DNA of 64,000 nucleotides, taken from assembly GCF_013385985.1 (NCBI RefSeq), contig NZ_JACAOY010000007.1, positions 184,522 through 248,521 on the forward strand, written 5' to 3'. The notes below the pieces were generated by a model. The model made no database searches. It was not told the origin of the DNA and was given only the letters and a program-made list of their open reading frames with translations. Shown here piece by piece: positions 3,111 through 32,665 of this stretch. Positions within the stretch are counted from its first letter, which is position 1; each line of letters begins with the position of its first letter. The stretch comes from Pseudomonas sp. B6002. GTDB taxonomy: Bacteria; Pseudomonadota; Gammaproteobacteria; Pseudomonadales; Pseudomonadaceae. Both the position numbers and the translations under genes were made by a program.

Positions 3111-3123
3111 CAGGAGCACGGAT

Positions 3124-3699
3124 ATGTTGCGAATCCTGTTGATCAACGACACACCGCGTAAAGTCGGCCGGCTCCGGGCCGCGCTGATTGAGGCAGGGTT
3201 CGAGGTCATTGATGAGTCGGGCCTGACCATCGACCTGCCGGCACGCGTCGAAACGGTGCGACCGGACGTGATCCTGATCGATACCGAGTCACCCGGGCGC
3301 GATGTGATGGAGCAAGTGGTGCTGGTCAGCCGCGACCAGCCACGGCCGATCGTGATGTTTACCGACGAGCACGACCCGAATGTGATGCGCCAGGCGATCA
3401 AGTCGGGCGTCAGCGCCTACATTGTCGAAGGCATTCAGGCCCAGCGCCTGCAGCCGATTCTCGACGTGGCCATGGCGCGCTTCGAGAGCGACCAGGCCCT
3501 GCGCGCCCAGCTCCAGGCGCGGGACCAGCAACTGGCCGAGCGCAAACGCATCGAGCTGGCCAAGGGCATGCTGATGAAAATGAAGAGCTGCAATGAGGAA
3601 GAGGCCTACACCCTGATGCGCCGCCAGGCCATGAGCCGCCAGCAGAAACTGATCCAGGTGGCCGAGCAGATTATCGCCATGAGTGAGCTGCTCGGCTGA
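3124..3699 (+). CDS. nasT: NasT, response-regulator-like ANTAR antiterminator
   Basis: The protein has 191 residues: an N-terminal receiver-like domain (MLRILLIND, then DVILIDTES carrying the usual aspartate position), a connecting helix with heptad character (about 120-138), and a C-terminal ANTAR domain (AKGMLMKMKSCNEEEAYTLM and following). ANTAR domains bind tandem hexaloop hairpins and prevent termination. Such hairpins occur upstream of nasS, nasA and nirB in this window, so all of its likely targets are local. The start ATG has AGGAGCACGG upstream. NasS is the expected inhibitory partner, and nitrate rather than phosphorylation is the expected signal. Confidence 0.93.
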   Translation: MLRILLINDTPRKVGRLRAALIEAGFEVIDESGLTIDLPARVETVRPDVILIDTESPGRDVMEQVVLVSRDQPRPIVMFTDEHDPNVMRQAIKSGVSAYIVEGIQAQRLQPILDVAMARFESDQALRAQLQARDQQLAERKRIELAKGMLMKMKSCNEEEAYTLMRRQAMSRQQKLIQVAEQIIAMSELLG

Positions 3700-3701
3700 T
3701 T

Positions 3702-3717
3702 TGGCTCAGCTCTTGCT
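3702..3717 (+). promoter_or_regulatory. sigma-54 promoter candidate for nasA
   Basis: TGGCTCA-GCTC-TTGCT has the TGGC and TTGCT cores at the correct spacing, with two mismatches in the -24 element. It starts just after the nasT stop and ends 15 bases before the first leader stem, the same geometry as upstream of nasS. Confidence 0.5.
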
Positions 3718-3731
3718 AAGCATTCATCACA

Positions 3732-3816
3732 GGTAACCAACGGCGGTTGCCCCTCCACGACAAAGACGTCGCACATCCGGTTTGCCCCCGCAAACCCGGT
3801 GGCGGCGTTTTTTCGT
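3732..3816 (+). promoter_or_regulatory. NasT/ANTAR-type antitermination leader of nasA
   Basis: The first hairpin has a seven-pair stem (3732-3738 with 3745-3751, one G-U) and loop AACGGC. The second has stem CGAC/GTCG (3758-3761 with 3768-3771) and loop AAAGAC. Both loops have A1 and G4. The terminator uses 3762-3772 paired with 3802-3813 around an inner GGTTTGC/GCAAACC hairpin and ends in a T run, so it competes with the second hairpin. A further hairpin, GGCCCCA/TGGGGCC, lies just after it at about 3820-3838. Confidence 0.7.
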
Positions 3817-3909
3817 TTTGGCCCCAGTGCATGGGGCCGGTGGGGCAGCCTTCGCCGGCTGTTCCATCACCCGGCCTTCTTACAAGACTCCCAACCGTTG
3901 AGGTGCGTG

Positions 3910-5121
3910 ATGAAATCAAGCTTCTGGAAATCCGGGCACACCCCGACCCTGTTTGCCGCGTTCCTGTATTTCGACCTGAGTTTCATGGTCTGGTACCTGC
4001 TGGGCCCGCTGGCGGTGCAGATCGCCGCCGACCTGCACCTGACCACCCAGCAGCGCGGCCTGGTGGTGGCGACGCCGATCCTGGCGGGCGCCGTCTTGCG
4101 CTTCCTGATGGGCATGCTGGCTGACAAGCTGTCGCCCAAAACCGCCGGGCTGATCGGCCAGGTGATCGTGATCGCCGCGCTGTTCGGCGCCTGGAAGCTG
4201 GGCATCCACAGCTATGAACAAGCCCTGTTGCTGGGCGTGTTCCTGGGCATGGCCGGTGCGTCATTTGCCGTCGCCCTGCCGCTGGCGTCCCAATGGTACC
4301 CGGCCGAACACCAGGGCAAGGCCATGGGCATCGCCGGCGCCGGCAACTCCGGTACCGTATTTGCCGCCTTGCTCGCACCCGTGCTGGCCGCAGCGTTTGG
4401 CTGGAGCAATGTGTTTGGCTTCGCGCTGATCCCGCTGGTGCTCACCCTGATCGTCTTTGCCTGGCTGGCGCGCAATGCACCGGAACGCCCGAAGGCCAAA
4501 TCCATGGCCGACTACTTCAAGGCCCTGGGCGACCGCGACAGCTGGTGGTTCATGTTCTTCTACAGCGTGACGTTTGGCGGTTTCATCGGCCTGGCCAGCG
4601 CCCTGCCCGGCTACTTCAACGACCAGTACGGCCTGAGCCCGGTCACGGCCGGCTACTACACCGCAGCCTGCGTGTTTGGCGGCAGCCTGATGCGCCCGCT
4701 GGGCGGCGCCCTGGCCGACCGTTTCGGCGGCATCCGCACCCTGCTCGGCATGTACAGCGTGGCGGCGATCTGCATCGCGGCGGTGGGTTTCAACCTGCCC
4801 AGTTCCTACGCGGCATTGGCGCTGTTCGTCTGCACCATGTTCGGCCTCGGCGCGGGCAATGGCGCGGTGTTCCAACTGGTACCGCAGCGCTTTCGCCGTG
4901 AGATCGGCGTGATGACCGGCCTGATCGGCATGGCCGGTGGGATCGGCGGTTTTGCCCTGGCGGCCGGCATGGGCGCGATCAAGCAAAGCACCGGCAGTTA
5001 CCAGATGGCGCTGTGGTTGTTCGCCAGCCTTGGCGTGCTGGCCTGGTTCGGCCTGCACGGGGTGAAACGCCGCTGGAGAACCACTTGGGGTTCGGCCGCC
5101 GTGACCGCTGCCCGCGTCTGA
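3910..5121 (+). CDS. nasA: NarK/NasA-family nitrate transporter (MFS)
   Basis: This 403-residue membrane protein has about twelve hydrophobic segments. It carries nitrate/nitrite-porter landmarks: the conserved opening FDLSFMVWYLLGPL, the RFLMGMLADK cytoplasmic loop, the glycine-rich AGAGNSGTVFAALLAP, and later FGLGAGNGAVFQLVPQRF. It should import nitrate for assimilation. The ATG at 3910 follows GAGGTG and begins directly with the N-terminal tail; an upstream in-frame ATG at 3799 lies inside the leader terminator and is rejected. The stop codon overlaps the start of the kinase gene by one base, so both are on one transcript under the NasT leader. Confidence 0.93.
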   Translation: MKSSFWKSGHTPTLFAAFLYFDLSFMVWYLLGPLAVQIAADLHLTTQQRGLVVATPILAGAVLRFLMGMLADKLSPKTAGLIGQVIVIAALFGAWKLGIHSYEQALLLGVFLGMAGASFAVALPLASQWYPAEHQGKAMGIAGAGNSGTVFAALLAPVLAAAFGWSNVFGFALIPLVLTLIVFAWLARNAPERPKAKSMADYFKALGDRDSWWFMFFYSVTFGGFIGLASALPGYFNDQYGLSPVTAGYYTAACVFGGSLMRPLGGALADRFGGIRTLLGMYSVAAICIAAVGFNLPSSYAALALFVCTMFGLGAGNGAVFQLVPQRFRREIGVMTGLIGMAGGIGGFALAAGMGAIKQSTGSYQMALWLFASLGVLAWFGLHGVKRRWRTTWGSAAVTAARV

Positions 5122-6791
5122 TGAGCCTGCAACTGAGCGTCGCCCACGCCAGCGCCATCGGCCCACGGGCAGAAAACCAGGACGCCCTGCGCGTGGTCAC
5201 GCCGGTCGCGGAACTGGCCGCCAGCAAAGGCTACCTGTGTGCATTGGCCGACGGTGTGAGCCAATGCGCCGATGGCGGGTTGGCTGCACGCTCGACCTTG
5301 CAGGCCCTGGCCTTGGACTATTACGCCACGCCGCAAACCTGGGGCGTGGCCCAGGCCCTGGAACGCCTGCTGCTCGCACAAAACCGCTGGCTGCAGGCCA
5401 ATGGCGGTGGCCAGCCGTTGCTGACCACCCTCAGCGCCCTGGTGTTTCGCGGCCAGCGCTTCACCCTGGCGCACGTCGGCGATTGCCGGGTTTATCGCTG
5501 GCTGGACGGCGAGCTGCAGCGCATCAGCGAAGACCATGTGTGGGAGCAACCGGGCATGCAGCATGTGCTCAAGCGCGCACTCGGCCTGGATCAGCACCTG
5601 GTACTGGATTTTCTCGACGGCGAACTGCGTTCGGGCGAATGCTTTCTGCTGCTCAGCGATGGTGTGTGGGCCACCCTGGGCGATCACAGCATCAGCACGA
5701 TCCTGCGTGAACAAACCGACCTCGACCTGGCAGTGAACACGCTGGTCAACGCCGCTCATTTGGCCGGCAGCCAGGACAACGCCAGTGCCCTGCTGGTGCG
5801 CATCGACGCACTGGGCGCCGCCACCCTCGGCGATGCCTTGGTGCAGTTGCAGCAATGGCCCTTGCCGCCGCCGCTGAAACCCGGGCAACGCTTTGAGGGC
5901 TGGCAGGTGGAGTGCGTGCTGGCGCAGAGCCGACAGTCGTTGCTGTACCGGGTACGCGATGCCCAGCAACAAGCCTGGCTGTTGAAAACCTTGCCGCTCA
6001 ACCGTGACGACGACAACGATGCCGGCCAGGCCTTGCTCTCGGAAGAGTGGTTTTTGCGACGGGTGGCCGGGCGCGCGTTTCCGGAAGTGCATGCCGCCAG
6101 CGGGCGTCAGCACTTGTACTACGTGATGCGCGAATATCCCGGGCAAACCCTGGCTGCGCTGTTCGAGCAGCAAGGCCCGCTGCCCTTGGCGCAATGGCAG
6201 TCCATCGCCGAGCGATTGCTGCGTGCCGTGGGCCTGCTGCATCGACGGCAGATCCTGCACCGCGACATCAAACCGGAAAACCTGCTGCTGGGGGACGACG
6301 GCGAACTGCGCGTGCTGGATTTCGGCCTGGCTTATTGCCCGGGCCTTTCTGAAGACCGTGCCCACTTGCTGCCCGGCACCCCGAGTTTTATCGCGCCGGA
6401 GGCCTTTGCCGGTGACCGTCCTACAGCACAGCAGGATTTGTACAGCGTCGGCGTCACCTTGTATTACCTGCTCACCGGGCAGTACCCCTGCGGTGAAATC
6501 GAGGCTTTCCAACGGCCGCGTTTCACCCAAGCTGTCAGCGCCAGCCGCTACCGCCCGGACCTGCCGGATTGGCTGCCACTCAGCTTGGAACGCGCGGTGG
6601 CCGCTCAACCCGCGCAGCGTTATGAAACCGCCGAAGAATGGCTGCTGGTGCTGGAGCAGGCGGACCGTCGCGAGCTGAGCGTGCGGCCACGGCCGTTGCT
6701 GGAGCGTGAACCGCTGAAGGTCTGGCAGACCCTGGCGGTGGCGTCGCTGCTGATCAATCTGGTGCTGCTGTATTGGTTACTGCACCACTAG
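5121..6791 (+). CDS. PP2C phosphatase - Ser/Thr kinase fusion with a C-terminal membrane anchor
   Basis: The protein has 556 residues. Residues 1 to about 230 are a PP2C-type phosphatase (RAENQDAL, ADGVS, VGDCRVYRW, SDGVWATL, SQDNAS). Residues about 255-510 are a Hanks-type kinase with the catalytic loop HRDIKPENLL, DFGLAY and the GTPSFIAPE activation segment; the lysine in WLLKTLP is the likely ATP-binding residue. The last 20 residues form one transmembrane helix, which would leave the catalytic domains in the cytoplasm. It overlaps nasA by one base. This phosphatase-kinase pairing in one chain is often found next to nasA in Pseudomonas. Its substrate is unknown; the position suggests nitrate uptake or reduction. 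Confidence 0.9.
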   Translation: MSLQLSVAHASAIGPRAENQDALRVVTPVAELAASKGYLCALADGVSQCADGGLAARSTLQALALDYYATPQTWGVAQALERLLLAQNRWLQANGGGQPLLTTLSALVFRGQRFTLAHVGDCRVYRWLDGELQRISEDHVWEQPGMQHVLKRALGLDQHLVLDFLDGELRSGECFLLLSDGVWATLGDHSISTILREQTDLDLAVNTLVNAAHLAGSQDNASALLVRIDALGAATLGDALVQLQQWPLPPPLKPGQRFEGWQVECVLAQSRQSLLYRVRDAQQQAWLLKTLPLNRDDDNDAGQALLSEEWFLRRVAGRAFPEVHAASGRQHLYYVMREYPGQTLAALFEQQGPLPLAQWQSIAERLLRAVGLLHRRQILHRDIKPENLLLGDDGELRVLDFGLAYCPGLSEDRAHLLPGTPSFIAPEAFAGDRPTAQQDLYSVGVTLYYLLTGQYPCGEIEAFQRPRFTQAVSASRYRPDLPDWLPLSLERAVAAQPAQRYETAEEWLLVLEQADRRELSVRPRPLLEREPLKVWQTLAVASLLINLVLLYWLLHH

Positions 6792-22543: not shown

Positions 22544-23968
22544 TTACAGGTGAAACCGCCCGCCCCCCTGCCCCAGCGCGGTGGCCAACGCATCAAACCC
22601 CGCCCGCAGCAACTGATCATCCCCGGACGTATTGCAGATGCTCGCCCGAATAAACTGCGGCACCGCCGTCTGCCCCACGGCAAATGCCTCGGCAGTGGCG
22701 ATCAGGTAATTATTCTGCTTGAGCTCCGCCTCGATTTCCGACGCGCGCCAGGGCTCCGGCACTTCAATCCAGAAGTGCGGGCTGTTGAGGTGGGTGCGGT
22801 ATTGCAGGCCGTTCAACAGGTCTTTCACCAATGCCTTGCGCCGGCTGATCTCATTGATCTGCTGGCGCAGCAGGTATTCCGCCGTGCCGTTTTCGATCCA
22901 CTGGGTAGCCAGTTCGAGGGTCACCGGGGTGGCCATCCAGCACGTCGAGCGCAGCGCTGCCGAGATACGGCTGACCAGTGCCGGCGGCGCATGCACGTAC
23001 CCCACGCGCAACCCGGCTGACACCGCCTTGCTCAAGCTGCTGATCAGAATCGTACGCTCGGGCGCGAAAAAGCTCAGGGGTGGCGGGCGATCCTCCACCA
23101 GCACCCCGTGGGCTTCGTCTTCCAATATCAGCAGGTTGTGCTCACGGCAGACCTTGGCCAGGGCCTCCCGACGCGGGATCGACAGCACTGCCGTGGTCGG
23201 GTTCTGGATGGTCGGTGTGCAGTACAGCGCCGACACCCGGTGATTGCGGCAAACCTCATCCAGCGCGCCCGGCAGCACGCCCTCTTCGTCCATCTCCAGG
23301 CCGATCAGGCGCACGCCGAGCATACGCGCAGCGGTGATCAACCCGGGGTAAGTCAGTTGTTCGGTGACCACCGTATCGCCCGCCCGCAACAACGCCATCA
23401 TGGCGCACAACAAACCGTGCTGGCCGCCATTGACGCAGATGACCTGCTCGGGAATCGGGTGAAAGTCGCTCTGCACCAGCCACTGCGCGCCCGCCTCACG
23501 GTAGCGCGGCAAACCGGCGTCCGGGGTGTAGGCGCTGATGTCCTGGAGGAATTTGGCGTTGGTCGACAGGGTTTGGAAGCTCTGGGCCAGGAACACCGTT
23601 TCCTGACCCGGGATATGCATGTTGCGGCTCATGTCGAAGTATTGGCGCGGCTCCTCGCTGAAATTGCGAAAGCCTTCGTCGCGCTGGCGCTCCATCCCAC
23701 GCTTGCGCACGAATGTGCCGTCACCCACCCGCGCCACCACCAACCCCAGGCGTTCCAGCTCGCCGTAGGCCCGGCTGATGGTGCCGATCGTCACACCCAG
23801 ATTGTCGGAAAGCACCCGATGGGGCGGCAGTTTTCTTCCCGGTTCAATCAAGCCTTCGAGGATGCCCCGTTCCATGACATCGGACAGGCGCTTGTACTTC
23901 ACGCCCTGCCCGCTGGACAACCCCTCACGCATAATTGACACCATGTCAATATTTGTTTTGACAGCCAT
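22544..23968 (-). CDS. MocR/GntR-type regulator with aminotransferase-like domain
   Basis: The 474-residue protein has a GntR winged helix at about 20-95 (RLSDVMERGILEGLIEPGRKLP starts it; LGVTIGTISRAYGELERLG is the recognition region). It is joined to a fold-type-I PLP domain with TPTIQNPTTAVLS and the PLP-lysine segment ISSLSKAVSAGLRVGY (lysine near 320). MocR proteins sense an amino acid, amine or vitamin through PLP. It is divergent from the exporter and sulfur-carrier operon, 103 bases away, so it is the likely regulator of that operon. The effector is unknown; an amino-acid product or substrate of the operon is a reasonable guess. Confidence 0.88.
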   Translation of the reverse strand: MAVKTNIDMVSIMREGLSSGQGVKYKRLSDVMERGILEGLIEPGRKLPPHRVLSDNLGVTIGTISRAYGELERLGLVVARVGDGTFVRKRGMERQRDEGFRNFSEEPRQYFDMSRNMHIPGQETVFLAQSFQTLSTNAKFLQDISAYTPDAGLPRYREAGAQWLVQSDFHPIPEQVICVNGGQHGLLCAMMALLRAGDTVVTEQLTYPGLITAARMLGVRLIGLEMDEEGVLPGALDEVCRNHRVSALYCTPTIQNPTTAVLSIPRREALAKVCREHNLLILEDEAHGVLVEDRPPPLSFFAPERTILISSLSKAVSAGLRVGYVHAPPALVSRISAALRSTCWMATPVTLELATQWIENGTAEYLLRQQINEISRRKALVKDLLNGLQYRTHLNSPHFWIEVPEPWRASEIEAELKQNNYLIATAEAFAVGQTAVPQFIRASICNTSGDDQLLRAGFDALATALGQGGGRFHL

Positions 23969-24012
23969 CTTTCGCCCTAATAGTGTGCTTTTACGGGTTC
24001 AATCGCCGAATT

Positions 24013-24033
24013 TTACAACTCATTACAAGCTCA
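24013..24033. promoter_or_regulatory. direct repeat in the divergent promoter, candidate MocR site
   Basis: TTACAACTCA (24013-24022) is followed directly by TTACAAGCTCA, a ten-base period that puts the TTACAA halves on the same face of the helix. MocR proteins commonly bind direct repeats next to their own gene. The repeat lies about 40 bases before the exporter start. Confidence 0.4.
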
Positions 24034-24071
24034 ATATAGAGTTCAATTCCGGCTCAGGGAAGCAATAAACG

Positions 24072-25022
24072 ATGCCAATGTCCGCCGTTCTCGAAAACAC
24101 AACAAAAACAAATTCCCGGAAACAGTGGCTGGCTGGCCTCGTGACCAGTGTGATGTTTCTTATCGTGTGCCTGAGTTGGGGCACCACCTGGCTGGGCATC
24201 AAGATCGCCGTCGAAAGCGTGCCACCGCTGACGTCCGCAGGCTTGCGCTTCCTCATCGCCTTCCCGCTGTTTCTGTGTTTTGCCCTGGTGCGTCGCGAGC
24301 CGATCCTGTTTCCCCGTGAGAGCCGCTGGTTCTTCGTATTCGTGACCCTGTCCTACTTCAGCGTTCCCTATTACCTGCTCAACTACGGCGAGATGCATGT
24401 CTCGTCCGGCCTCACCGCCCTGCTGTTCAGCTGCATGCCGGTGTTCATCCTGATCTTCTCGGCGCTGTTCCTGCGCGAGCGCATCTACTTCTCCCAGGTC
24501 GTCGGCATCGGCATCGGTTTCGGCAGCCTCTACATGATCATCAAGAGCCAGGGCCTGCACCTGGACCACGCCGAGTTCTTCGGGGTGCTGGCAATCCTGA
24601 CCGCCGCGATCATGCATGCCCTGTGCTACGTCATTACCAAGCAGAAAGGCAGCGCCATCAGCGTGATCACCTACAACACCCTGCCCATCGGCATCGCCGG
24701 GCTGATGCTGTTCGTGGCTGGCCTGTGGTTCGAAACCCCGGCCTTCGACACCATCACCCTGCGCTCCTGGAGTGCGCTGTTCTACCTGGGGCTGGTGGCG
24801 TCGGTCGGCGGGTTTATCGTGTACTTCATGCTGCTCAAGCGCCTGAGCCCGATCATCCTGTCGTTCGTGTTCATCATCTTCCCGGTGTTCGCGGTGATCA
24901 TCGGCGCCTGGTACGAAGGCGTGGCGATTTCCCGTGACCTGATGCTGTACTCGGCCATCCTGCTGGCCGGTTTTGCGATCACCAAGTTGCCGATTGAAAA
25001 GCTCCTGGCCAAGAAACCTTGA
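24072..25022 (+). CDS. EamA/DMT-family transporter, probable metabolite exporter
   Basis: The 316-residue protein has ten predicted transmembrane helices in two EamA repeats (first LSWGTTWLGIKIAVE; second YVITKQKGSAISVITYN and on). Such proteins usually export amino acids and related metabolites; cysteine/O-acetylserine exporters belong to this superfamily. It is the first gene of the operon that continues with the sulfur-carrier fusion 26 bases downstream. AGGGA precedes the ATG at 24072; a second ATG at 24078 is possible. The context points to export of the pathway product. Confidence 0.85.
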   Translation: MPMSAVLENTTKTNSRKQWLAGLVTSVMFLIVCLSWGTTWLGIKIAVESVPPLTSAGLRFLIAFPLFLCFALVRREPILFPRESRWFFVFVTLSYFSVPYYLLNYGEMHVSSGLTALLFSCMPVFILIFSALFLRERIYFSQVVGIGIGFGSLYMIIKSQGLHLDHAEFFGVLAILTAAIMHALCYVITKQKGSAISVITYNTLPIGIAGLMLFVAGLWFETPAFDTITLRSWSALFYLGLVASVGGFIVYFMLLKRLSPIILSFVFIIFPVFAVIIGAWYEGVAISRDLMLYSAILLAGFAITKLPIEKLLAKKP

Positions 25023-25048
25023 CCCCCTCACCACCACGCGAGAGAAAC

Positions 25049-26911
25049 ATGGACGTCCTCCGCCCAAAAGCCCTTGAACAGATCTACGCCCACGCCAACC
25101 GCAGTTACCCCGAGGAATGCTGCGGCTTCATCTTCGCCGACGGCAGCGTGTACCTGGGCAGCAATATCCAGAATGAGCTGCACCGCAAGAACCCCGAGAT
25201 GTACCCGCGCAGCGCGGCCAACGGCTACACGTTTTCGGTGGCCGACACCCTGCTGATGAACAAGGCGTTTCGCAGCGACAACCCGGTGGTGGTGATCTAC
25301 CACTCGCACCCGGATGTCGGCGCCTATTTCAGCGATGAAGACCAGGACAAGGCCTTATTCATGGGCGAACCGATCTACCCCGTCAGCTACCTGGTGGTGG
25401 ACGTTCGCCAGGGCCAGACCCTGGGCTCAAAGCTGTTTGCCTGGGACGGCAGGCATTTCGCCCTCAACCCTTTCAACGACCTGCACACGGAGTTGTCCAT
25501 GAACGCTGTCTCTTTCCCCGACATTCTGGTTCGCGTGGCCAAGCTGCCGGAATCGACCCTTGAGGGCACCGGATCGACATTGCGCGAAGTCATTGAAAAC
25601 CTCTGCAGCAGTCACCCTCAGTTACGCCCGCACCTGTTCCACGAGAAGAACAACCAGCTCAAGGAACACTTCCTGTTCACCGCCGAGGAAGAACTGATCG
25701 GCGCCGACGATGCACTGCCGGAAAAAGCCCGGATCGAAGTGCTGCTCGCCACCTCGGGCGGCATGGACGTTGACGCGTTGAGTAATGAAGAGGTACAGCG
25801 CTACGTGCGCCACATCACCCTGCCCGGCGTTGGCCGCGAAGGCCAGTTGAACCTGAAGAAAGCCAAGGTGCTGATCATCGGCACCGGTGGCCTGGGCTCG
25901 CCCATCAGCCTGTACCTGGCGGCGGCCGGCGTCGGCACCCTGGGCCTGGTGGACTTCGACGTGGTGGAAAGCAGCAACCTGCAACGCCAGATCGTCCACG
26001 GCAACAGCACCCTGGGCCTGCCCAAAGTCGAGTCCGCCAAGGCGCGCCTGCAGGACCTCAACCGCCATATCCAGATCAACGCCCACGACACCGCCTTGAA
26101 CGCTGACAATGCCCTGGAACTGGTGGGCGCCTACGACCTGGTGATCGACGGCACCGATAACTTCGACACCCGCTACCTCGTCAACGACGCCTGCGTACAG
26201 CTCGGCAAACCCTTGGTGTACGGCGCCATCTACCGCTTCGACGGGCAGATCAGCGTACTCAACTACAAAGGCGGGCCCTGCTATCGCTGCCTGTTTCCCT
26301 CGGCCCCTCCCGCCGAACTGGCGCCCAATTGCAGCGCCGGTGGCGTGATCGGCGTGCTGCCCGGCGTGGTCGGGATGATCCAGGCCACCGAGGCCATCAA
26401 GTTGCTGATTGGCATTGGCGAGCCGCTGTCCGGTCGCCTGATGCGCTTCGACGCACTGGCGATGAAGTTCAGCGAAATCCGCTTCAAGCGCCGCGCCGAC
26501 TGCCCTTGCTGTTCCGCGCTGCGCCACAGCGAACCGTTCACGTCGGCGGTTTGCGCCGACGCCGTACCCGTCCAACCGTCCCTGGCCGAAGAGCGCTACA
26601 TCAAGCCCCGCGTGCTCAAGCAATTGCTCGAGCACCCGCGCAGTGCAGACGTGCTGGTGGATGTGCGCGACGCCAGCGAACTGGAGGTGTGCAAATTGCC
26701 AGGGGTGGTGCACATCCCCTTGGCCGAGCTGGATGGGCAACTCGACAGCCTCAGCCGCGACAACACCCATTACCTGATCTGCTACGCCGGGACCCGCGCC
26801 GAGCAAGCCGCCAGCACCTTGCTGGCGGCCGGCTTCGCCAACACCAAGGTCTTGCAGGGTGGCATGAAGCACTGGGTGCGCGACGTCGAACCCGACATGC
26901 CGTTGTACTGA
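25049..26911 (+). CDS. four-domain JAMM protease / ubiquitin-like sulfur carrier / E1-like activase / rhodanese fusion
   Basis: The protein has 620 residues. Residues 1-149: JAMM/MPN+ metalloprotease with Glu22/23 in EECCGF and the full HxHPx6SxxD motif at 85-98. Residues 151-238: MoaD/CysO-like beta-grasp domain ending TSGG. Residues 239 to about 490: ThiF/MoeB E1-like domain with GTGGLGSP at 278-285, an arginine-containing SSNLQRQIVH, paired zinc cysteines CYRC and CPCC, and NCSAGGVIGVLPGVVG. Residues about 515-620: rhodanese with catalytic Cys578 in CYAGTR. Both inner domains begin at a methionine (151 and 239), as if separate genes had been joined. The separate M. tuberculosis Mec+, CysO and MoeZ have these same activities: E1 plus rhodanese would make a carrier thiocarboxylate, and JAMM would release product or trim the carrier. 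A cysteine-synthase-like gene follows 15 bases later. The carrier C-terminus is not free unless the chain is cut after Gly238. Confidence 0.88.
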   Translation: MDVLRPKALEQIYAHANRSYPEECCGFIFADGSVYLGSNIQNELHRKNPEMYPRSAANGYTFSVADTLLMNKAFRSDNPVVVIYHSHPDVGAYFSDEDQDKALFMGEPIYPVSYLVVDVRQGQTLGSKLFAWDGRHFALNPFNDLHTELSMNAVSFPDILVRVAKLPESTLEGTGSTLREVIENLCSSHPQLRPHLFHEKNNQLKEHFLFTAEEELIGADDALPEKARIEVLLATSGGMDVDALSNEEVQRYVRHITLPGVGREGQLNLKKAKVLIIGTGGLGSPISLYLAAAGVGTLGLVDFDVVESSNLQRQIVHGNSTLGLPKVESAKARLQDLNRHIQINAHDTALNADNALELVGAYDLVIDGTDNFDTRYLVNDACVQLGKPLVYGAIYRFDGQISVLNYKGGPCYRCLFPSAPPAELAPNCSAGGVIGVLPGVVGMIQATEAIKLLIGIGEPLSGRLMRFDALAMKFSEIRFKRRADCPCCSALRHSEPFTSAVCADAVPVQPSLAEERYIKPRVLKQLLEHPRSADVLVDVRDASELEVCKLPGVVHIPLAELDGQLDSLSRDNTHYLICYAGTRAEQAASTLLAAGFANTKVLQGGMKHWVRDVEPDMPLY

Positions 26912-26926
26912 CCCGAGGGCTGAGCA

Positions 26927-27841
26927 ATGTTGCATAACTCGATTCTCGACGTGATCGGCCATACGCCGATCGTGCGCCTGGCACAGTTTTCCGAAGACCT
27001 CGGCATCGAGGTCTACGCCAAGCTCGAATCCCTTAACCCGGGCGGCAGCCACAAGGCGCGCGTCGCCCTGGGCATGATCCTCGACGCCGAGCGTCGCGGC
27101 GTGCTGATCCGTGATTCGGGGCAGACCATCATCGAACCCAGCGGCGGCAACACCGGCATCGGCCTGGTGATGGCCGGCAACGTGCTGGGCTACAAAGTGG
27201 TGCTGGTGATTCCCGACAACTACAGCCCCGAAAAACAGAAACTGCTGCGCCTGTACGGGGCCAAGGTGGTGCTGTCGGACAGCCGCCTGGGCAACAATTC
27301 CCACGGCGAAAAGTGCATGGAGCTGCAGCTGGAAAACCCCAGCTACGTGATGCTCAACCAGCAGCGCAACGGCGCCAACCCCCAGACCCACCGCGACACC
27401 ACCGCGCCGGAGATCCTCCGTGCGTTCGGCGAACAGCGCGTGGACTACTTCGTCAGCGGCATCGGCACCGGGGGTCATATCACCGGCATCGGCGAAACCC
27501 TCAAGGCGGCCTGGCCGGCGCTGCGCGTGATGGGCGTGGAGCCGGAGGAATGCGACCTGCTGAAAAACCAGCACGCGCCGCACCATATCCAGGGCCTGTC
27601 GATCGGCCTGATCCCGAGCATTCTCAACGTGGATGTGCTCGACGGCATGCTCAAGGTGTCGCGCCAGGCATGCATCGACATGATGAAACGCATCATGCGC
27701 ACCGACGCCATCAGCCTTGGCCTGTCCTCCGCCGCCAACATGGTTGCCATCGCCCAGTTGGCACCCGAACTGCCGCCTGAAACGGTGGTGCTGACCATGG
27801 TCTACGACAATGCCGACAGTTACCTGCCCAGTTTCGAATAA
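26927..27841 (+). CDS. cysteine synthase-like PLP enzyme (fold type II)
   Basis: The 304-residue protein aligns over its full length with O-acetylserine sulfhydrylase/CysM proteins. The PLP lysine is Lys43 in NPGGSHKARVA. The substrate loop is EPSGGNTGIGL and the phosphate-binding loop GIGTGGHITGIGE. Two departures stand out: the usual SVKDR is SHKAR and the usual PTSGNTG is PSGGNTG, both next to the active site. This suggests a different nucleophile or substrate, such as a protein thiocarboxylate, as for M. tuberculosis CysM with CysO. It lies 15 bases after the carrier fusion and 37 bases before the acetyltransferase-like gene. Confidence 0.85.
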   Translation: MLHNSILDVIGHTPIVRLAQFSEDLGIEVYAKLESLNPGGSHKARVALGMILDAERRGVLIRDSGQTIIEPSGGNTGIGLVMAGNVLGYKVVLVIPDNYSPEKQKLLRLYGAKVVLSDSRLGNNSHGEKCMELQLENPSYVMLNQQRNGANPQTHRDTTAPEILRAFGEQRVDYFVSGIGTGGHITGIGETLKAAWPALRVMGVEPEECDLLKNQHAPHHIQGLSIGLIPSILNVDVLDGMLKVSRQACIDMMKRIMRTDAISLGLSSAANMVAIAQLAPELPPETVVLTMVYDNADSYLPSFE

Positions 27842-27878
27842 CCGGTTTTCCAACCATTCAGAATGCGGGGGTGCCTCC

Positions 27879-28871
27879 ATGGGGGGCTTTATCGACATGC
27901 AACAGCTGCACGATGAGCTGCTCACCCACCTCATCAAAACCCTGACGCCGACGCAGATGAAGCAGCTGGAACCACACCTGGCCCCGCTGATCCAGAATGC
28001 CGCCCAGGCCGTGGCCGAGGACCTGATCGCCTACGCCTACCGCGACCCGGCGTCACGCGGGCGCGGCGAGTTGATCCTGGAGTCCTACGCTTCATTTAAA
28101 GCCGTGCTGTTCTATCGCCTGGCGCACCTGGTGTGGAACTTCCCCGACCAGACCAACGGCGTGTTTTCGCGCATCGCCCTCAAGCTCAGTAACCAGGGCA
28201 AGGTGCTCTCCGGTGCCGAAATCCACCCGGCAGCCCGCATCGGTCGGCGCTTCGTGCTGGACCACGGCTACGGCACGGTGATCGGCGAGACCTGCGAGAT
28301 CGGCAACGACTGCTACATCCTCTGCGGCGTCACCCTCGGCGCACGCGGCATCGCCAACAACCCGGATGGCAAGCGCCACCCGCGCCTGGGCAATAACGTC
28401 GAGGTCGGCTCCGGCGCCCGTGTGCTGGGCTATGTGCTGATTGGCGATAACGTGTTCATCAGCCCGTCCTGCGTGATCACCCAGGACGTGCCGGCGGGCA
28501 CCAAGGTCAAGGTGGTCAACCAGATCCAGCTGCAAAAAAATGATGAATCGGACCACAGCAATTATTTGGGCGCCTTTGCCCTGGATGAGCGCTTGCACGT
28601 GGTAGGCGAGGTCAATGCCAGCCATAAAGTCACGGTGCTGGACGCCGACTTCCACCCCTTGCCGGGGTTGATGCTCGAACCCACGGTAAAAGAGCGCCAT
28701 CACCTGCAATTTCGCCTGCGCCGCCTTGAATTCGGCAACCACCTGCCACGCCTGCCGCTGAACCTCAAAGTCAGCGGGCCGGAATTCGAAATCACCCTGC
28801 TCTCTCCCCCTGGCTTGAGCGCAATGGTGCGTCACCTGTTGCAAGCCAGCCCACTGATTGTCGGAGGTTGA
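27879..28871 (+). CDS. serine O-acetyltransferase-like protein with an extra C-terminal domain
   Basis: The 330-residue protein has an N-terminal helical region (1 to about 85) and a left-handed beta-helix of hexapeptide repeats (about 108-205) with the CysE-type catalytic DHGYGTVIGETCEIGND and GVTLGARG. This part resembles serine acetyltransferase, which makes O-acetylserine for cysteine synthase. A further stretch of about 115 residues (about 215-330), with LHVVGEVNASHKVTVLD and LNLKVSGPEFEITLL, is not part of ordinary CysE/EpsC proteins and is unassigned. The ATG at 27879 is preferred; 27897 is also possible. It ends two bases before the AlaX gene. Confidence 0.8.
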   Translation: MGGFIDMQQLHDELLTHLIKTLTPTQMKQLEPHLAPLIQNAAQAVAEDLIAYAYRDPASRGRGELILESYASFKAVLFYRLAHLVWNFPDQTNGVFSRIALKLSNQGKVLSGAEIHPAARIGRRFVLDHGYGTVIGETCEIGNDCYILCGVTLGARGIANNPDGKRHPRLGNNVEVGSGARVLGYVLIGDNVFISPSCVITQDVPAGTKVKVVNQIQLQKNDESDHSNYLGAFALDERLHVVGEVNASHKVTVLDADFHPLPGLMLEPTVKERHHLQFRLRRLEFGNHLPRLPLNLKVSGPEFEITLLSPPGLSAMVRHLLQASPLIVGG

Positions 28872-28873
28872 AC

Positions 28874-29602
28874 ATGTCTGTGCACACCATGGAGACCCTG
28901 GCGCTGTTCGACAGCGCGCCCTACCAGAACACCTTCAGCGCCCGAGTGATTGCGGTCGGCGAGCACGGCATTGCCCTTGAGCACACGCTGTTCTACCCCA
29001 CGGGTGGTGGCCAGCCAGGAGACACTGGCTACTTCACCCTGGCGGATGGCACGCGGGTCGAGGTGGTGGGAACGGTCCGCGACCCCGTGATGCGTTCGAT
29101 CATCTGGCACCAGGTGGAACATTGCCCTGGGCAATTGACCGTTGGAGCACAGGTGGACGCGGGCCTGGACTGGGAGCGCCGCTACCAGCACATGAAGATG
29201 CACACTTGCCTGCACCTGTTGTGCTCACTGATCGATGCGCCGGTGACCGGTTGCAGCATCAGTGCCGACAAAGGCCGCCTGGATTTCGACCTGCCGGAAA
29301 TGACACTCGACAAAGACAACCTCACCCACGACCTGAATGCGCTGATCCAGCAGGCTCACGCGGTCAACACCCTGTCGATGCCCGCCACGGAATACGCCAC
29401 CCTGCTGCAGATCACACGCACCCAGGCGGTGGCACCGCCAGTGATCCAGGGTTCGGTACGGGTGATCGAAATTGCCGGGATCGATATCCAACCGTGCGGC
29501 GGCACCCACGTGGCCAACACCGAGGAAATCGGCCGGGTGTTCTGCGATAAGATCGAGAAGAAGAGCAAGCACAATCGTCGGGTGATCCTGCGCTTTGAGT
29601 GA
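28874..29602 (+). CDS. AlaX-type alanyl-tRNA editing protein
   Basis: The 242-residue protein is a stand-alone version of the editing domain of alanyl-tRNA synthetase. Zinc ligands are visible as HMKMH (about 98-102) and CGGTH (about 208-212); the N-terminal glycine-rich FYPTGGGQPGD strand is typical. Such proteins remove serine or other wrong amino acids from tRNA-Ala. Here it is the last gene of a cysteine-like biosynthetic operon, two bases after the acetyltransferase-like gene, so it may protect the cell from mischarging by serine or by the product. The ATG at 28874 follows GGAGG. Confidence 0.88.
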   Translation: MSVHTMETLALFDSAPYQNTFSARVIAVGEHGIALEHTLFYPTGGGQPGDTGYFTLADGTRVEVVGTVRDPVMRSIIWHQVEHCPGQLTVGAQVDAGLDWERRYQHMKMHTCLHLLCSLIDAPVTGCSISADKGRLDFDLPEMTLDKDNLTHDLNALIQQAHAVNTLSMPATEYATLLQITRTQAVAPPVIQGSVRVIEIAGIDIQPCGGTHVANTEEIGRVFCDKIEKKSKHNRRVILRFE

Positions 29603-29610
29603 GCGACCGA

Positions 29611-29640
29611 GGCTAGCGTGGGTGTTGCCCCACGCTAGCC
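29611..29640 (+). terminator. strong hairpin at the end of the sulfur-carrier operon
   Basis: GGCTAGCGTGGG and CCCACGCTAGCC form a perfect twelve-pair stem with a six-base loop, starting eight bases after the AlaX stop. No T run follows directly, so it may terminate weakly or protect the 3' end. It also lies at the 3' end of the convergent coiled-coil gene. Confidence 0.65.
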
Positions 29641-29659
29641 AATACCCGAGGTTTACTTT

Positions 29660-30544
29660 TTATTGCTTGCTGACTTGCTGGGTCAGGTCGTCGAAGCGTT
29701 TTTCAAGCGTCGACATTGTCTGCTCGAAGTACTGTTCCATCCGATCGATCTGAGCCTCAAGATTCTGGTTTTCCTGCTTGAGGTAATCAATGCTGGCCGT
29801 TGCTGGCGCTGTTGGAGCATGGGTAGACGCGGCAGGCGTTTGGGCCGTTTCGTGCTCCGGTGAAGCCGTCTGGCCGGCGTCCGATTGAGCAGGAACCGTT
29901 TGGTCTTGAGGCGTACGGTTGTTGAGCAGTTGAGCCAAGTTATCCAAACGTTCCGTGAGGGTTTTCATCGCCGTATTGAAAACGTCGAGTAACCGCTTGA
30001 ACTCACTTTGTAGCCTGGTGATATCTGCTGACAGTTGGCCAACCCCTTGAGCGCTCTGAGCATCAGCAACCGGGGCCTGGGTAGCCGGTGTAGCAGCGGC
30101 GTCAGACGGCGCGACTTGCCCCTCGGCTTGCCGGTTCTCTGGCTGGGTCTGCGCAGCCACGGGCGCCTGCTCAGGCTTGGGGGCCGACGTACTGAGCTGC
30201 TGAGTCAGGCCTTCTATTTTGGTATTGAGCTCAGTGATCTTCGCCGAGAACTTTGAGATCAAGGCCTTGTACTTGGCGACAAGATTTTGATTTTTCTGCG
30301 TCAGTTCTGCCAACTCGCCTTGGGGCTCCGTGCCTTGAGGCTGCTGATTGACGATGCTGTTGTGCCTGGAAAACTGGCCACGTTGCTCTGCCCCCACCGG
30401 AGGGCGGGGCGGCATGGATTCAGTCGTGGTATTGGCCGGACCGGTGTTTGCAGCGGCAGGGTCACTGGAAGACGTGGGTTGCGGTTTTGGTTGCATTTCG
30501 TAGCGATATTGGGGCGCATACTGCTGATTATTGACACTGTTCAT
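29660..30544 (-). CDS. coiled-coil protein rich in Gln, Pro and Ala, function unknown
   Basis: I do not recognise this 294-residue protein. It has no signal peptide or membrane segment. The N-terminal 75 residues are disordered and rich in N, Q, P, S and T (MNSVNNQQYAPQYRYEMQPK and on). Three predicted coiled coils follow (about 85-135, 178-222, 258-293), separated by proline/alanine/glutamine linkers. Each coil has the pattern LxxKF/LxxRF with repeated TxLxxxxxxLxQ. The soft N-terminus and modular coils would suit a secreted or scaffold protein. The ATG at 30544 follows GAGAGG; a longer start is unlikely. A GGAAC-type promoter candidate lies about 80 bases upstream. Confidence 0.65.
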   Translation of the reverse strand: MNSVNNQQYAPQYRYEMQPKPQPTSSSDPAAANTGPANTTTESMPPRPPVGAEQRGQFSRHNSIVNQQPQGTEPQGELAELTQKNQNLVAKYKALISKFSAKITELNTKIEGLTQQLSTSAPKPEQAPVAAQTQPENRQAEGQVAPSDAAATPATQAPVADAQSAQGVGQLSADITRLQSEFKRLLDVFNTAMKTLTERLDNLAQLLNNRTPQDQTVPAQSDAGQTASPEHETAQTPAASTHAPTAPATASIDYLKQENQNLEAQIDRMEQYFEQTMSTLEKRFDDLTQQVSKQ

Positions 30545-30621
30545 AAAGCACCTCTCAGTTTCGCGGTTGGCCCGCGTGCAGGGTTTGTCAGACGATTTGG
30601 CTAACAAGTCATCCAACTACC

Positions 30622-30649
30622 TGATTGGCACGTATAGGAAACCAGTTCC
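30622..30649 (-). promoter_or_regulatory. ECF-type (hrp-box-like) promoter candidate
   Basis: On the minus strand, GGAACT is followed after 15 bases by CCAATCA. The HrpL box is GGAACC-N15/16-CCACNNA, so there is one mismatch in each half. It lies 78 bases upstream of the coiled-coil gene. Other ECF sigma factors also use GGAAC at -35. Confidence 0.35.
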
Positions 30650-30919
30650 CTGAGGCAGAGAAATCTACGTGGGTATTTGTTTCAGGGTAAAAAAACCGTC
30701 GATACCCAAGCCACGTTTCGTACAGGAAACTGACAGGAAATTTATGCGCTTGTAACATTCAGAAACGTACAATCCCGCCTGTGGCCATCCTCCCCTGATG
30801 CGCTGCAAACCGACCATGGAAAAGAGCGCCCGCCCATTCCCGGTGGGTCTTTCGAACAGAAGCTAAGCTCACCCCCATCGCACCTCTTTAGAACCTGAAC
30901 GCTGCAGGAATGACTGCCT
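30650..30919. other. intergenic region, mostly unassigned
   Basis: This stretch lies between the divergent coiled-coil gene and the ABC permease. It must hold the permease promoter. I see no strong inverted repeat, open frame or RNA-like structure in it, apart from a short GGGCGCTC-like GC patch near 30825. Confidence 0.4.
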
Positions 30920-32665
30920 ATGAACAAAGTGTTCCGCCACTACATCCCGGCGTCCACATTGCGCTTGCTGCCCAACCGTTGGGATTTGGTCGCCCTGCCG
31001 CTGGTAATCGGCTTCCTCCTGTTTTTCTCCATCACTGCCCGTGAAACCTGGGCGCCCATCACCACCCTGCAAAGCGAGGTCATTTCCCTCGACCCGGCCA
31101 ACCTGCCGGAATACGCGATGCGCACTACCCTGCGCATGCTCGCGGCGATGGTCGCAGCGTTGGTGTTCACCTTTTTGTACGGCACCCTGGCCGCCAAAAG
31201 CCGGCGCGCCGAGAAACTGCTGGTGCCGGTGCTCGACATCCTGCAATCGGTACCGGTGCTGGGGTACATCTCGTTCACGGTGACGTTTTTCCTGCTGCTG
31301 TTTCCCGGGCGCGTGCTGGGGGCCGAGTTCGCGGCGATTTTTGCGATCTTCACCAGCCAGGCCTGGAACATGACGTTCAGCTTCTACCAGTCGCTGCGCA
31401 TGCTGCCCCATGACCTGGTGGAAGTGTCCACCAACCTGCGGCTCTCCGGCTGGCAGAAGTTCTGGAAGCTCGACGTGCCGTTCGCCATGCCGGGGCTGGT
31501 GTGGAACATGATGATGAGCATGTCCGGGGGCTGGTTTTTCGTGGTTGCCTCCGAAGCCATCACCGTGGGCGACAAGACCATCACCCTGCCCGGCGTCGGC
31601 TCGTACCTGGCCTTGGCGATTGCCCAGAAAGACCTACACGCGGTGGGCTACGTGATCCTGGCAATGATCGCGGTGATCCTGATCTACGACCAGTTCCTGT
31701 TCCGCCCGCTGGTGGCCTGGGCCGACAAGTTCCGCATGGAAACCACCGCGTCCCAAGGCGACGCGCCGCAATCCTGGGTGCTGAACCTGATTCAACGCAC
31801 ACGCATCGTGCAGCGCATCCTGCGCCCCATCACCCGTGCGATCAGCCGTATCGGCAACAAGCGCTTCAGCCTCGCCGGCGGTGCATTCAAGGCATTGCCG
31901 GTAGAAACACCCGCCGCGTCAAAAGTGATCGACTGGGTGTGGGGCACGCTGATTGCCCTGATGGCCGCCTATGCGCTGTATCACATCGTGATGTACGTCG
32001 GCACCGAAGTGGGCCTGGCCGAAGTGGGCCACGTGCTGGTGCTGGGCCTGATTACCCTGCTGCGGGTGGCCGGGCTGATCCTGATCGCCTCGCTGATCTG
32101 GGTGCCCCTGGGCGTGATGATCGGTTTGCGCCCCAAGCTGGCAGAGAAGATCCAGCCACTTGCGCAGTTCCTCGCGGCGTTCCCGGCAAACCTGCTGTTC
32201 CCGGTGTTCGTCATCGTGATCCTGCACTACCACCTCAACCCGGATATCTGGCTGAGCCCGCTGATCGTGCTGGGCACCCAGTGGTACATCCTGTTCAACG
32301 TGATTGCCGGCGCCACCGCGTTCCCCAACGACTTCAAGGAAGCCGCTGCCAACTTCCGCATTCGCGGCTGGTTGTGGTGGCGCAAGGTGATGCTGCCGGG
32401 GATTTTCCCCTACTACGTCACCGGCGCCATCACCGCCTCGGGCGGGGCGTGGAACGCCAGCATCGTGTCCGAGTACGTGTCCTGGGGCCAGGACAATGTG
32501 GTCGCCCACGGGCTGGGCGCCTACATCGCACAAACCACGGCGGCCGGCGACTTCCCGAAGATCGCCCTGGGCGTAGTGGTGATGTCGATCTTTGTGGTGG
32601 CGTTCAACCGCGCGGTCTGGCGACCGATGTACGCCATTGCTGAAAACAAACTTCGTTTGAACTGA
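30920..32665 (+). CDS. ABC transporter permease, fused double-length (nitrate/sulfonate/taurine class)
   Basis: The 581-residue protein contains two BPD_transp_1 permease modules in one chain. The first (about 60-265) has the EAA-like loop VEVSTNLRLSGWQKFWKLDVPFAMPG in part; the second (about 370-575) has KEAAANFRIRGWLWWRKVMLPG. About twelve transmembrane segments are visible. One chain can therefore supply both halves of the pore. The ATPase gene follows after 14 bases. No periplasmic binding protein lies next to the pair, so the substrate cannot be read from the context. The ATG at 30920 follows GCAGGA. Confidence 0.85.
   Translation: MNKVFRHYIPASTLRLLPNRWDLVALPLVIGFLLFFSITARETWAPITTLQSEVISLDPANLPEYAMRTTLRMLAAMVAALVFTFLYGTLAAKSRRAEKLLVPVLDILQSVPVLGYISFTVTFFLLLFPGRVLGAEFAAIFAIFTSQAWNMTFSFYQSLRMLPHDLVEVSTNLRLSGWQKFWKLDVPFAMPGLVWNMMMSMSGGWFFVVASEAITVGDKTITLPGVGSYLALAIAQKDLHAVGYVILAMIAVILIYDQFLFRPLVAWADKFRMETTASQGDAPQSWVLNLIQRTRIVQRILRPITRAISRIGNKRFSLAGGAFKALPVETPAASKVIDWVWGTLIALMAAYALYHIVMYVGTEVGLAEVGHVLVLGLITLLRVAGLILIASLIWVPLGVMIGLRPKLAEKIQPLAQFLAAFPANLLFPVFVIVILHYHLNPDIWLSPLIVLGTQWYILFNVIAGATAFPNDFKEAAANFRIRGWLWWRKVMLPGIFPYYVTGAITASGGAWNASIVSEYVSWGQDNVVAHGLGAYIAQTTAAGDFPKIALGVVVMSIFVVAFNRAVWRPMYAIAENKLRLN

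Follow-up and report, generated by a model that had tools for sequence, protein, structure and literature searches.

A Pseudomonas operon encoding a JAMM-UBL-E1-rhodanese fusion with an internal, invariant Gly-Gly: a putative carrier-based route to cysteine

The sulfur carrier CysO of Mycobacterium tuberculosis has a free C-terminus, and the carrier pathway in which it serves includes an acyl shift. The chemistry of CysO, MoeZ, CysM and Mec+ in this organism is described as a protein-bound cysteine pathway (PMC3227635). In P. aeruginosa, operon PA2100-PA2106 is annotated with a regulator, an exporter, a JAMM protein, a MoeB-like protein, a cysteine synthase, an acetyltransferase and an AlaS-domain gene (PMC9431628, PMC9866376, PMC13256707, PMC12800425). 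Iyer et al. 2006 had listed ThiS/MoaD, E1-rhodanese, JAB and cysteine synthase for this species (row 4c, Paer; PMC1779556), and this row presumably corresponds to locus tags PA2100-PA2106. Cleavage after the Gly-Gly of ubiquitin-like (UBL) proteins in longer chains is likewise known: MoaX is cut at Gly82-Ser83, as its activity requires, by a protease then unidentified (PMC4326299), DRJAMM cleaves the MoaD-MoaE fusion DR2607 (PMC8832034), and CsRpn11 cleaves a ubiquitin precursor after Gly-Gly (PMC6043591). We found no biochemistry on any member of this operon type in the literature. Here we describe such an operon from Pseudomonas sp. B6002, contained in a window of 64,000 nucleotides (contig NZ_JACAOY010000007.1), in which the carrier Gly-Gly is internal to the chain and yet invariant, a position on which the preliminary description of this DNA did not remark.

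Organization and distribution of the operon

The features of the locus are collected in Table 1. All open reading frames lie where the preliminary description placed them, with the exporter gene before the fusion gene, the regulator gene divergent, and the synthase, SAT (serine acetyltransferase)-like and AlaX genes closely packed behind the fusion; the gaps along the series from exporter to AlaX are 26, 15, 37 and 2 bases. For the SAT-like gene the ATG at 27879 was chosen as the start, the mechanical reading frame opening at 27810; the relatives' start codon at this position is no independent test of the choice.

Table 1. Features of the operon and its control region (positions in the window)
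Feature	Position	Strand	Basis
MocR-type regulator (GntR domain + aminotransferase-like domain), divergent	22544..23968	-	Pfam GntR + Aminotran_1_2
Intergenic control region	23969..24071	.	alignment, 70 distinct intergenic sequences
EamA-type metabolite exporter	24072..25022	+	PF00892, E 1.5e-42
JAMM-UBL-E1-rhodanese fusion, 620 aa counted from ATG	25049..26911	+	ORF + Pfam
JAMM (Prok-JAB) protease domain, residues 1-140	25049..25468	+	PF14464
CysO-like UBL (sulfur carrier), residues 153-238, C-terminal LATSGG	25505..25762	+	profile match
G237-G238 / M239-D240 junction, carrier to E1, predicted cleavage site	25757..25768	+	inference
ThiF/MoeB-type E1, four zinc cysteines, residues 252-487	25802..26509	+	PF00899, E 9e-82
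Rhodanese domain, active-site Cys578	26612..26881	+	PF00581, E 2e-14
Cysteine synthase-like PLP enzyme, CysK-type, PLP Lys43	26927..27841	+	PF00291, E 3e-72
SAT-like enzyme, 330 aa, extra C-terminal beta-rich domain (~residues 229-322)	27879..28871	+	cysE model; structure model m8f448963e109
AlaX-type trans-editing protein (alanyl-tRNA editing domain)	28874..29602	+	AlaXM model; zinc-site residues intact

A search for the same domain order and neighbours, proposed earlier as a check, finds the full arrangement in all 75 named loci, 74 of them from Pseudomonas; UBL, E1-rhodanese, JAB and cysteine synthase thus share one predicted operon in 75 of 75. The JAMM domain is fused only in fluorescens-group relatives, the UBL-E1 fusion being more widespread, and since the split relatives carry the JAMM as a separate protein its tethering is not essential. 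The order from JAMM to AlaX recurs in loci L094 (same genus), L095-L097 (same order, other families) and L100 (same class). Because the proteins of relatives with this kept order are only ~40-60% identical, the gene order is not due to chance. A MocR match is missing from the stretches of L097 and L100, and an EamA match from that of L100, whereas AlaX is present even there; the neighbouring genes tested are not common to the distant loci. Spread by plasmids was considered and set aside, a search of 72,556 plasmid records having given no match to the JAMM-UBL part at E 1e-10.

The fusion protein and its internal Gly-Gly

Pfam and profile searches agree with the earlier reading of one 620-residue chain carrying JAMM, UBL, E1 and rhodanese in that order. 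The Pfam hits are Prok-JAB at residues 7-119 (E 5e-16), ThiF at 252-487 and rhodanese at 522-611, with a weak ThiS-like hit at 160-238 (E 0.009, under the Pfam cut-off). Among the matches of a profile built from 23 UBL segments are 4n6e_B (a ThiS/MoaD family protein; E 1e-8), 3dwg_C (9.5 kDa antigen cfp10A; E 1e-5) and SAMP1. Since 4n6e_B and 3dwg_C are both, as we take them to be, CysO proteins, the label of a MoaD/CysO-like domain ending in SGG is right. The JAMM metal and catalytic residues are complete (E23, H85, H87, S95 and D98 in 92 of 92 aligned rows), and the paired zinc cysteines of the E1 and the rhodanese cysteine are likewise present as described: Cys411 and Cys414 in all 92 rows, Cys485 and Cys488 in 91 and Cys578 in 90, the remaining rows being gapped. 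The structure model of the whole chain is poor (mean pLDDT 57.4, pTM 0.35), and we therefore make no statement on the geometry of cleavage in cis.

SAMP/Urm1-like systems are likewise composed of an E1-rhodanese-type enzyme, a UBL and a JAMM, and with SAMP1 among the profile matches one could imagine a protein modifier, the UBL being conjugated to proteins and removed by the JAMM. We regard this as very improbable: a cysteine synthase and a SAT stand alongside in all 75 named loci, and the operon proteins contain no Pfam match to an E2 family. The PADLOC E1-E2 matches are generic and lie on the E1 part, where the best, at 73.2 bits, falls below the 274.3 bits of Pfam ThiF. An antiphage ubiquitin-like system was discarded on the same matches, the best 25 of 32 PADLOC matches of the chain being E1-E2 models on the E1 part, and the three other proteins scanned gave no PADLOC match.

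The E1 starts directly after the carrier Gly-Gly, and ATSGG stands before this start in all 92 loci, L077 and L100 included. All four Gly codons occur at both Gly positions (90 loci counted) and the residues are nevertheless invariant, a pattern that a dead linker would not be expected to show. In 90 of 92 loci the next residue is M, I or L, and the one after it is D, again in 90 of 92, the exceptions being L097 and L100. We infer from this arrangement that the carrier must be cut free of the E1 before it can act in cysteine building; proteolytic freeing would be expected for a Gly-Gly that is internal but invariant, most simply by the JAMM, and the precedents of MoaX, DRJAMM and CsRpn11 make cleavage after it plausible. 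An internal start yielding a free E1 was rejected as an alternative: the codon after Gly-Gly is ATG in only 49 of 90 loci, and the carrier would still not be freed. The genome's two other ThiS-family matches sit on other contigs. We found no report of self-processing of such a fusion in the open-licence literature.

The synthase, the acetyltransferase and the accessory genes

The operon synthase had been called CysM-like, but the cysK model gives it 292 bits and the cysM model 222 (below both curated cut-offs), and it shares the CysK-type PHxIQG motif with the genome's own CysK-like enzyme, the motif being absent from its CysM-like enzyme. By these model scores and own-genome comparisons it appears nearer to CysK, and the label was dropped. 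Lys43 is present in 90 of 91 rows, the other being gapped. Its substrate is probably O-acetylserine, as suggested by the linked SAT. The SAT-like protein reaches 148.5 bits with the cysE model (cut-off 210.65), keeps D128 and H129 in all 91 rows, and its structure model (63.9) matches SATs; further matches of the model to immunoglobulin-fold and MHC-like chains (E ~0.01 or worse) were taken as meaningless.

A C-terminal Gly-Gly is also seen in the SAT-like protein, in 82 of 91 rows (among the named loci, in 73 of 75), the nine without it being L028, L079, L135, L137 and L141 and the distant L095, L096, L097 and L100. We rejected a second carrier tail because the codons read GGAGGN, Shine-Dalgarno-like, before the alaX ATG in 80 of the 82; the distance between the first base of the SAT stop codon and the first ATG is 4-7 bases in 81 and 11 bases in one, and L135 reads the same GGAGG in a different frame, as MED. 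By its codons this end is the predicted overlapping ribosome-binding site of alaX. The UBL Gly-Gly passes the codon control that the SAT tail fails.

The nearest NCBIfam model of the regulator is EhuR (446.5 bits, cut-off 480). Repeated TCAAT boxes at 23969..24071, largely kept across the Pseudomonas loci shown, may form its operator. The main text of a MocR regulon paper contains the word "cysteine" in two unrelated passages only (PMC5320631). The exporter matches the O-acetylserine/cysteine exporter model weakly (39 bits; cut-off 472). AlaX gives 200.7 bits with the AlaXM model (cut-off 300) and keeps its zinc-site residues H114, C208 and H212 in 91 of 91 rows and H110 in 90. Members of the AlaX family remove serine that AlaRS has wrongly attached. 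AlaX is not required for cysteine synthesis, which counts against a cysteine-forming operon, and such synthesis accounts for neither AlaX nor the exporter. The constant presence of a tRNA editor hints at a product or substrate that threatens translation.

By annotation in the papers rather than by sequence comparison, the locus corresponds to the uncharacterised PA2100-PA2106: MocR to PA2100/MdrR2, EamA to PA2101, the synthase to PA2104, SAT to PA2105 and AlaX to PA2106. By annotation, the comparable gene set suggested earlier for P. aeruginosa does exist (PMC9431628, PMC9866376, PMC13256707). A cysE mutant of this species requires cysteine for growth on sulfate and on thiosulfate despite PA2105 (PMC13256707), and a mutant in both cysK and cysM is auxotrophic with late recovery only (PMC12800425); the operon therefore does not supply cysteine in growth amounts under those conditions, and in these mutants it is then off, too weak, or making something else. 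The carrier-based sulfur pathway put forward earlier is well supported by the anatomy (CysO-type UBL with invariant Gly-Gly, E1-rhodanese, JAMM, synthase and SAT); the further proposal, production and export of cysteine, goes unsupported in view of this auxotrophy. N-acetylcysteine raises the expression of PA2100-PA2103, the opposite of end-product repression, which also counts against cysteine formation; the response is mainly one of zinc starvation, and these four genes carry no Zur mark in the table (PMC9431628).

An alternative is a different product, for instance a serine or cysteine analogue acting as a signal or antimetabolite, or another small amino acid or thiol, secreted by EamA, with AlaX as self-protection against tRNA mischarging. 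An exporter, an own regulator and a tRNA editor in one unit, the retention of AlaX in L100, the uncovered cysteine need of the P. aeruginosa mutants, and CysK-, CysM- and CysE-type genes exceeding their models' cut-offs elsewhere in the genome all favour it; we still consider it doubtful, for the operon holds no further tailoring enzyme, none is added by neighbours common to the distant loci, and cysteine alone can account for every enzyme step. A response to serine or thiol overload is quite unlikely: MocR would sense excess serine or cysteine, SAT and the CysK-type enzyme drain serine, EamA export O-acetylserine or cysteine, and AlaX remove Ser-tRNA(Ala). The serine consumption by SAT, the editing activity of the AlaX family and the N-acetylcysteine induction fit this, but it needs no sulfur carrier, E1, rhodanese or JAMM, parts that retain their catalytic residues throughout.

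Proposed pathway and comparison with known systems

We consider it reasonably likely that this operon forms cysteine by a carrier-based route and is expressed conditionally. MocR would turn it on with an amino acid or thiol signal. The chain would be made as JAMM-UBL-E1-rhodanese and, because the E1 directly follows the Gly-Gly, its carrier could not be activated until the JAMM, in cis or between chains, cuts G238-M239 to give a JAMM-UBL with a free Gly-Gly end and a free E1-rhodanese. By homology, the E1 would adenylate this end and Cys578 would pass on sulfane sulfur to form a thiocarboxylate. SAT would supply O-acetylserine, from which the CysK-type enzyme would form aminoacrylate that takes its sulfur from the carrier, as in the M. 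tuberculosis pathway; after an acyl shift the cysteine would remain attached to the Gly-Gly end until the tethered JAMM recut the same position, now Gly238-Cys, to free it. With one position cut twice, a single protease would both mature and recycle the carrier fixed to it. EamA may export the product or O-acetylserine, and AlaX may remove serine or the product from mischarged tRNA. Of this scheme, the sequence analysis itself establishes which parts are present and in what order, that their key residues are intact, and that the internal Gly-Gly is invariant. A bolder and unlikely version makes the operon a self-contained secreted-metabolite cassette, in which the self-cleaving fusion builds a cysteine-like amino acid for export rather than for growth, AlaX gives the producer immunity at the tRNA level, and the attached release protease recuts the position of the maturation bond in each cycle.

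Apart from the synthase and SAT, one gene thus holds the whole carrier-based sulfur-transfer cycle, with a predicted self-processing step, and the counterpart operon is unexplained in P. aeruginosa, where cysteine synthesis is under study as a drug target. Like the M. tuberculosis system (PMC3227635), the locus has a CysO-like carrier with a (here internal) Gly-Gly, a complete JAMM, an E1-rhodanese with its active-site Cys and a PLP cysteine synthase; unlike it, the carrier proteins are fused, and MocR, EamA and AlaX are added. The comparison drawn earlier stands as an analogy, except that the synthase, judged by model scores and PHxIQG, is CysK-type with a SAT and not an O-phosphoserine CysM. 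The PDTC and quinolobactin siderophore clusters share the UBL, E1-rhodanese and JAMM core (PMC1779556, row 4a), but the operon has a cysteine synthase and SAT instead of a CoA transferase/AMP ligase, and the eight proteins of 22544-32665 gave no Pfam match to a CaiB-like CoA transferase or AMP-acid ligase. It differs from PA2100-PA2106 and row 4c, which names four parts only (PMC1779556), in the fusion of JAMM to UBL-E1-rhodanese in fluorescens-group loci. MoaX (PMC4326299) and DR2607 (PMC8832034) likewise hold a UBL Gly-Gly that needs release from a longer chain; they belong to molybdopterin synthase and their protease is separate, whereas here the candidate protease lies in the same chain.

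Operon layout and domain content

The operon lies in a genome of 6.68 Mb, and its five co-directional genes are separated by only 26, 15, 37 and 2 bases. In the single fusion chain JAB, ThiF and rhodanese give strong Pfam matches and the ThiS/MoaD-like part a weak one (19 of the 23 members of the profile built for this ubiquitin-like sulfur carrier, UBL, match Pfam ThiS at E 0.01). The 23-segment UBL profile itself matches 4n6e_B (E 1e-8), 3dwg_C (E 1e-5) and SAMP1; we take 4n6e_B to be CysO from an Amycolatopsis and 3dwg_C to be CysO from M. tuberculosis. Conservation was read from 92 alignment rows, comprising 75 named loci (L005-L079) and 17 further genome stretches, some from near relatives; 91 of the 93 UBL-E1-rhodanese rows, window included, are distinct. 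The tested catalytic residues are intact in 90-92 of the 92 rows for the chain and in 90-91 of 91 rows for the other enzymes, the remainder being mostly gaps.

Features of the operon and its surroundings (window coordinates)
Feature	Position	Description
Operon	22544-29602	divergent MocR regulator; then, co-directional, EamA exporter, JAMM-UBL-E1-rhodanese chain, cysteine synthase-like, serine acetyltransferase (SAT)-like and AlaX-type genes
MocR-EamA gap	23969-24071	repeated TCAAT boxes; candidate MocR operator
Fusion chain	25049-26911	620 residues
SAT C-terminal domain	28563-28844	SAT residues about 229-322; beta-rich; PPGL motif kept in 20 aligned sequences; no Pfam match
alaX Shine-Dalgarno-like GGAGG	28860-28876	inside the last two SAT codons
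Neighbouring gene	29660-30616 (-)	coiled-coil-like, Gln/Pro/Ala-rich protein; matched in only 18 of 92 stretches

Distribution and the two domain joints

In a scan of the species genomes, 156 stretches were confirmed; the best 80 of these include 75 named loci, of which 74 are from Pseudomonas and one is from Vreelandella. Each of the 75 has the complete part set in one order and a divergent MocR gene. With the window's own genome counted, 25 of 248 sampled family genomes and 2 of 369 sampled class genomes contain the JAMM-UBL part at E 1e-12; the order sample holds full-length chain matches in three genomes of the window's genus (G211, G251 and G290), together with UBL-E1-rhodanese relatives in G061, G288, G209 and G128. 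The distribution is therefore patchy. Matches to ppsA and ppsR occur in 65 of 92 stretches, and none of the four tested neighbour genes was found at the more distant loci, some of whose stretches are short.

JAMM is joined to the remaining domains only in close relatives. Among the 25 family genomes JAMM and UBL share one unbroken long frame in 11, a frame of 260 in one (G864) and are split in 13; among the named loci (best 80 of 156 stretches) 65 of 75 have one shared frame. Two of the other ten, L064 and L077, resemble broken fusions, and in L072 the JAMM and UBL-E1 genes overlap in different frames. We take the joining of JAMM to be a probable late frame fusion. The fusion-gene frame breaks in three of the 75 named draft assemblies (L062, L064, L077), through real breaks or sequencing errors. 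The UBL-E1 joint is wider, with ATSGG continuing into the E1 start in all 92 loci; the frames of L100 and L140 break further on.

A smaller variant, a cysteine synthase-like gene with a UBL-E1-rhodanese gene, occurs in another family of the order (L098 and L099, about 2900-5760). Its UBL tail, AIAGG, is more CysO-like, L099 has a short ORF between the two genes that is JAMM-like by position, and no SAT or AlaX match lies within either stretch. In L140 (genome G736) the UBL-E1 frame is shortened, AlaX is matched only in part, and synthase and SAT have no match in the stretch, suggesting a decaying copy and hence that the operon is dispensable.

Probable cysteine chemistry and the P. aeruginosa counterpart

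The synthase had been described preliminarily as CysM-like; its sequence instead places it as CysK-type, and the best E. coli match of its counterpart PA2104 is likewise CysK (34.3%; Table 1 of PMC12800425). Since a SAT gene adjoins it, the synthase is likely to use O-acetylserine as substrate. Elsewhere in the genome the cysKM model finds genes at 422, 410 and 297 bits (the first two above cut-off), aligning as CysK-, CysM- and CBS-like, respectively, and a CysE scores 257 bits; the operon would therefore be an extra route. A further SAT-like gene (G000:C4:471147-471635) reaches 169.5 bits to cysE, below cut-off. An apparent conserved Gly-Gly at the SAT C-terminus in most Pseudomonas loci was rejected as false conservation, arising from the overlapping alaX GGAGG.

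For PA2100 (MdrR2), the regulator of the counterpart operon, earlier work cited in PMC9431628 reportedly dealt with its control of efflux pumps. The comparable P. aeruginosa gene set, mentioned in the preliminary description, does exist by annotation. Iyer et al. 2006 (PMC1779556) list a P. aeruginosa neighbourhood of the same make-up as uncharacterised and suggest sulfur transfer coupled to cysteine production. In later papers, an RpoH regulon table includes PA2101-PA2104 and PA2106 (PMC9866376), N-acetylcysteine raises PA2100-PA2103 (PMC9431628), and residual thiosulfate growth of a cysM mutant is tentatively ascribed to PA2104 and/or PA1061 (PMC12800425). On both sulfate and thiosulfate a P. 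aeruginosa cysE mutant is auxotrophic for cysteine (PMC13256707), which counts against a cysteine supply role of the operon. The open-licence literature yielded no functional work on PA2101-PA2106 taken together as an operon, or on the fusion. Carrier-based cysteine chemistry is reasonably likely for the operon.

The internal Gly-Gly and its predicted cleavage

The carrier of MoaD/CysO-type systems requires a free Gly-Gly carboxylate (PMC4326299, PMC3227635). At the joint of the fusion chain LATSGG leads directly into MDVDA, after which comes the conserved E1 start LSNEE. Were the UBL merely a docking domain, its Gly-Gly should be expected to drift, and no such drift is seen. Because ATSGG is invariant in 92 of 92 loci while GGC, GGT, GGG and GGA all occur at both Gly sites (90 loci counted), we infer that cutting after the internal Gly-Gly would be obligatory. 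JAMM would be the natural agent, being the only protease recognised in the operon and belonging to enzymes that cut such junctions elsewhere; in the case of MoaX the protease was not identified (PMC4326299). In the fused form the carrier would, after the cut, stay tied to JAMM, the protease that would later release its cysteine. The fusion thereby gives a sharp prediction, self-processing. The operon is real, conserved and of a known kind, with the all-in-one fusion in close relatives.
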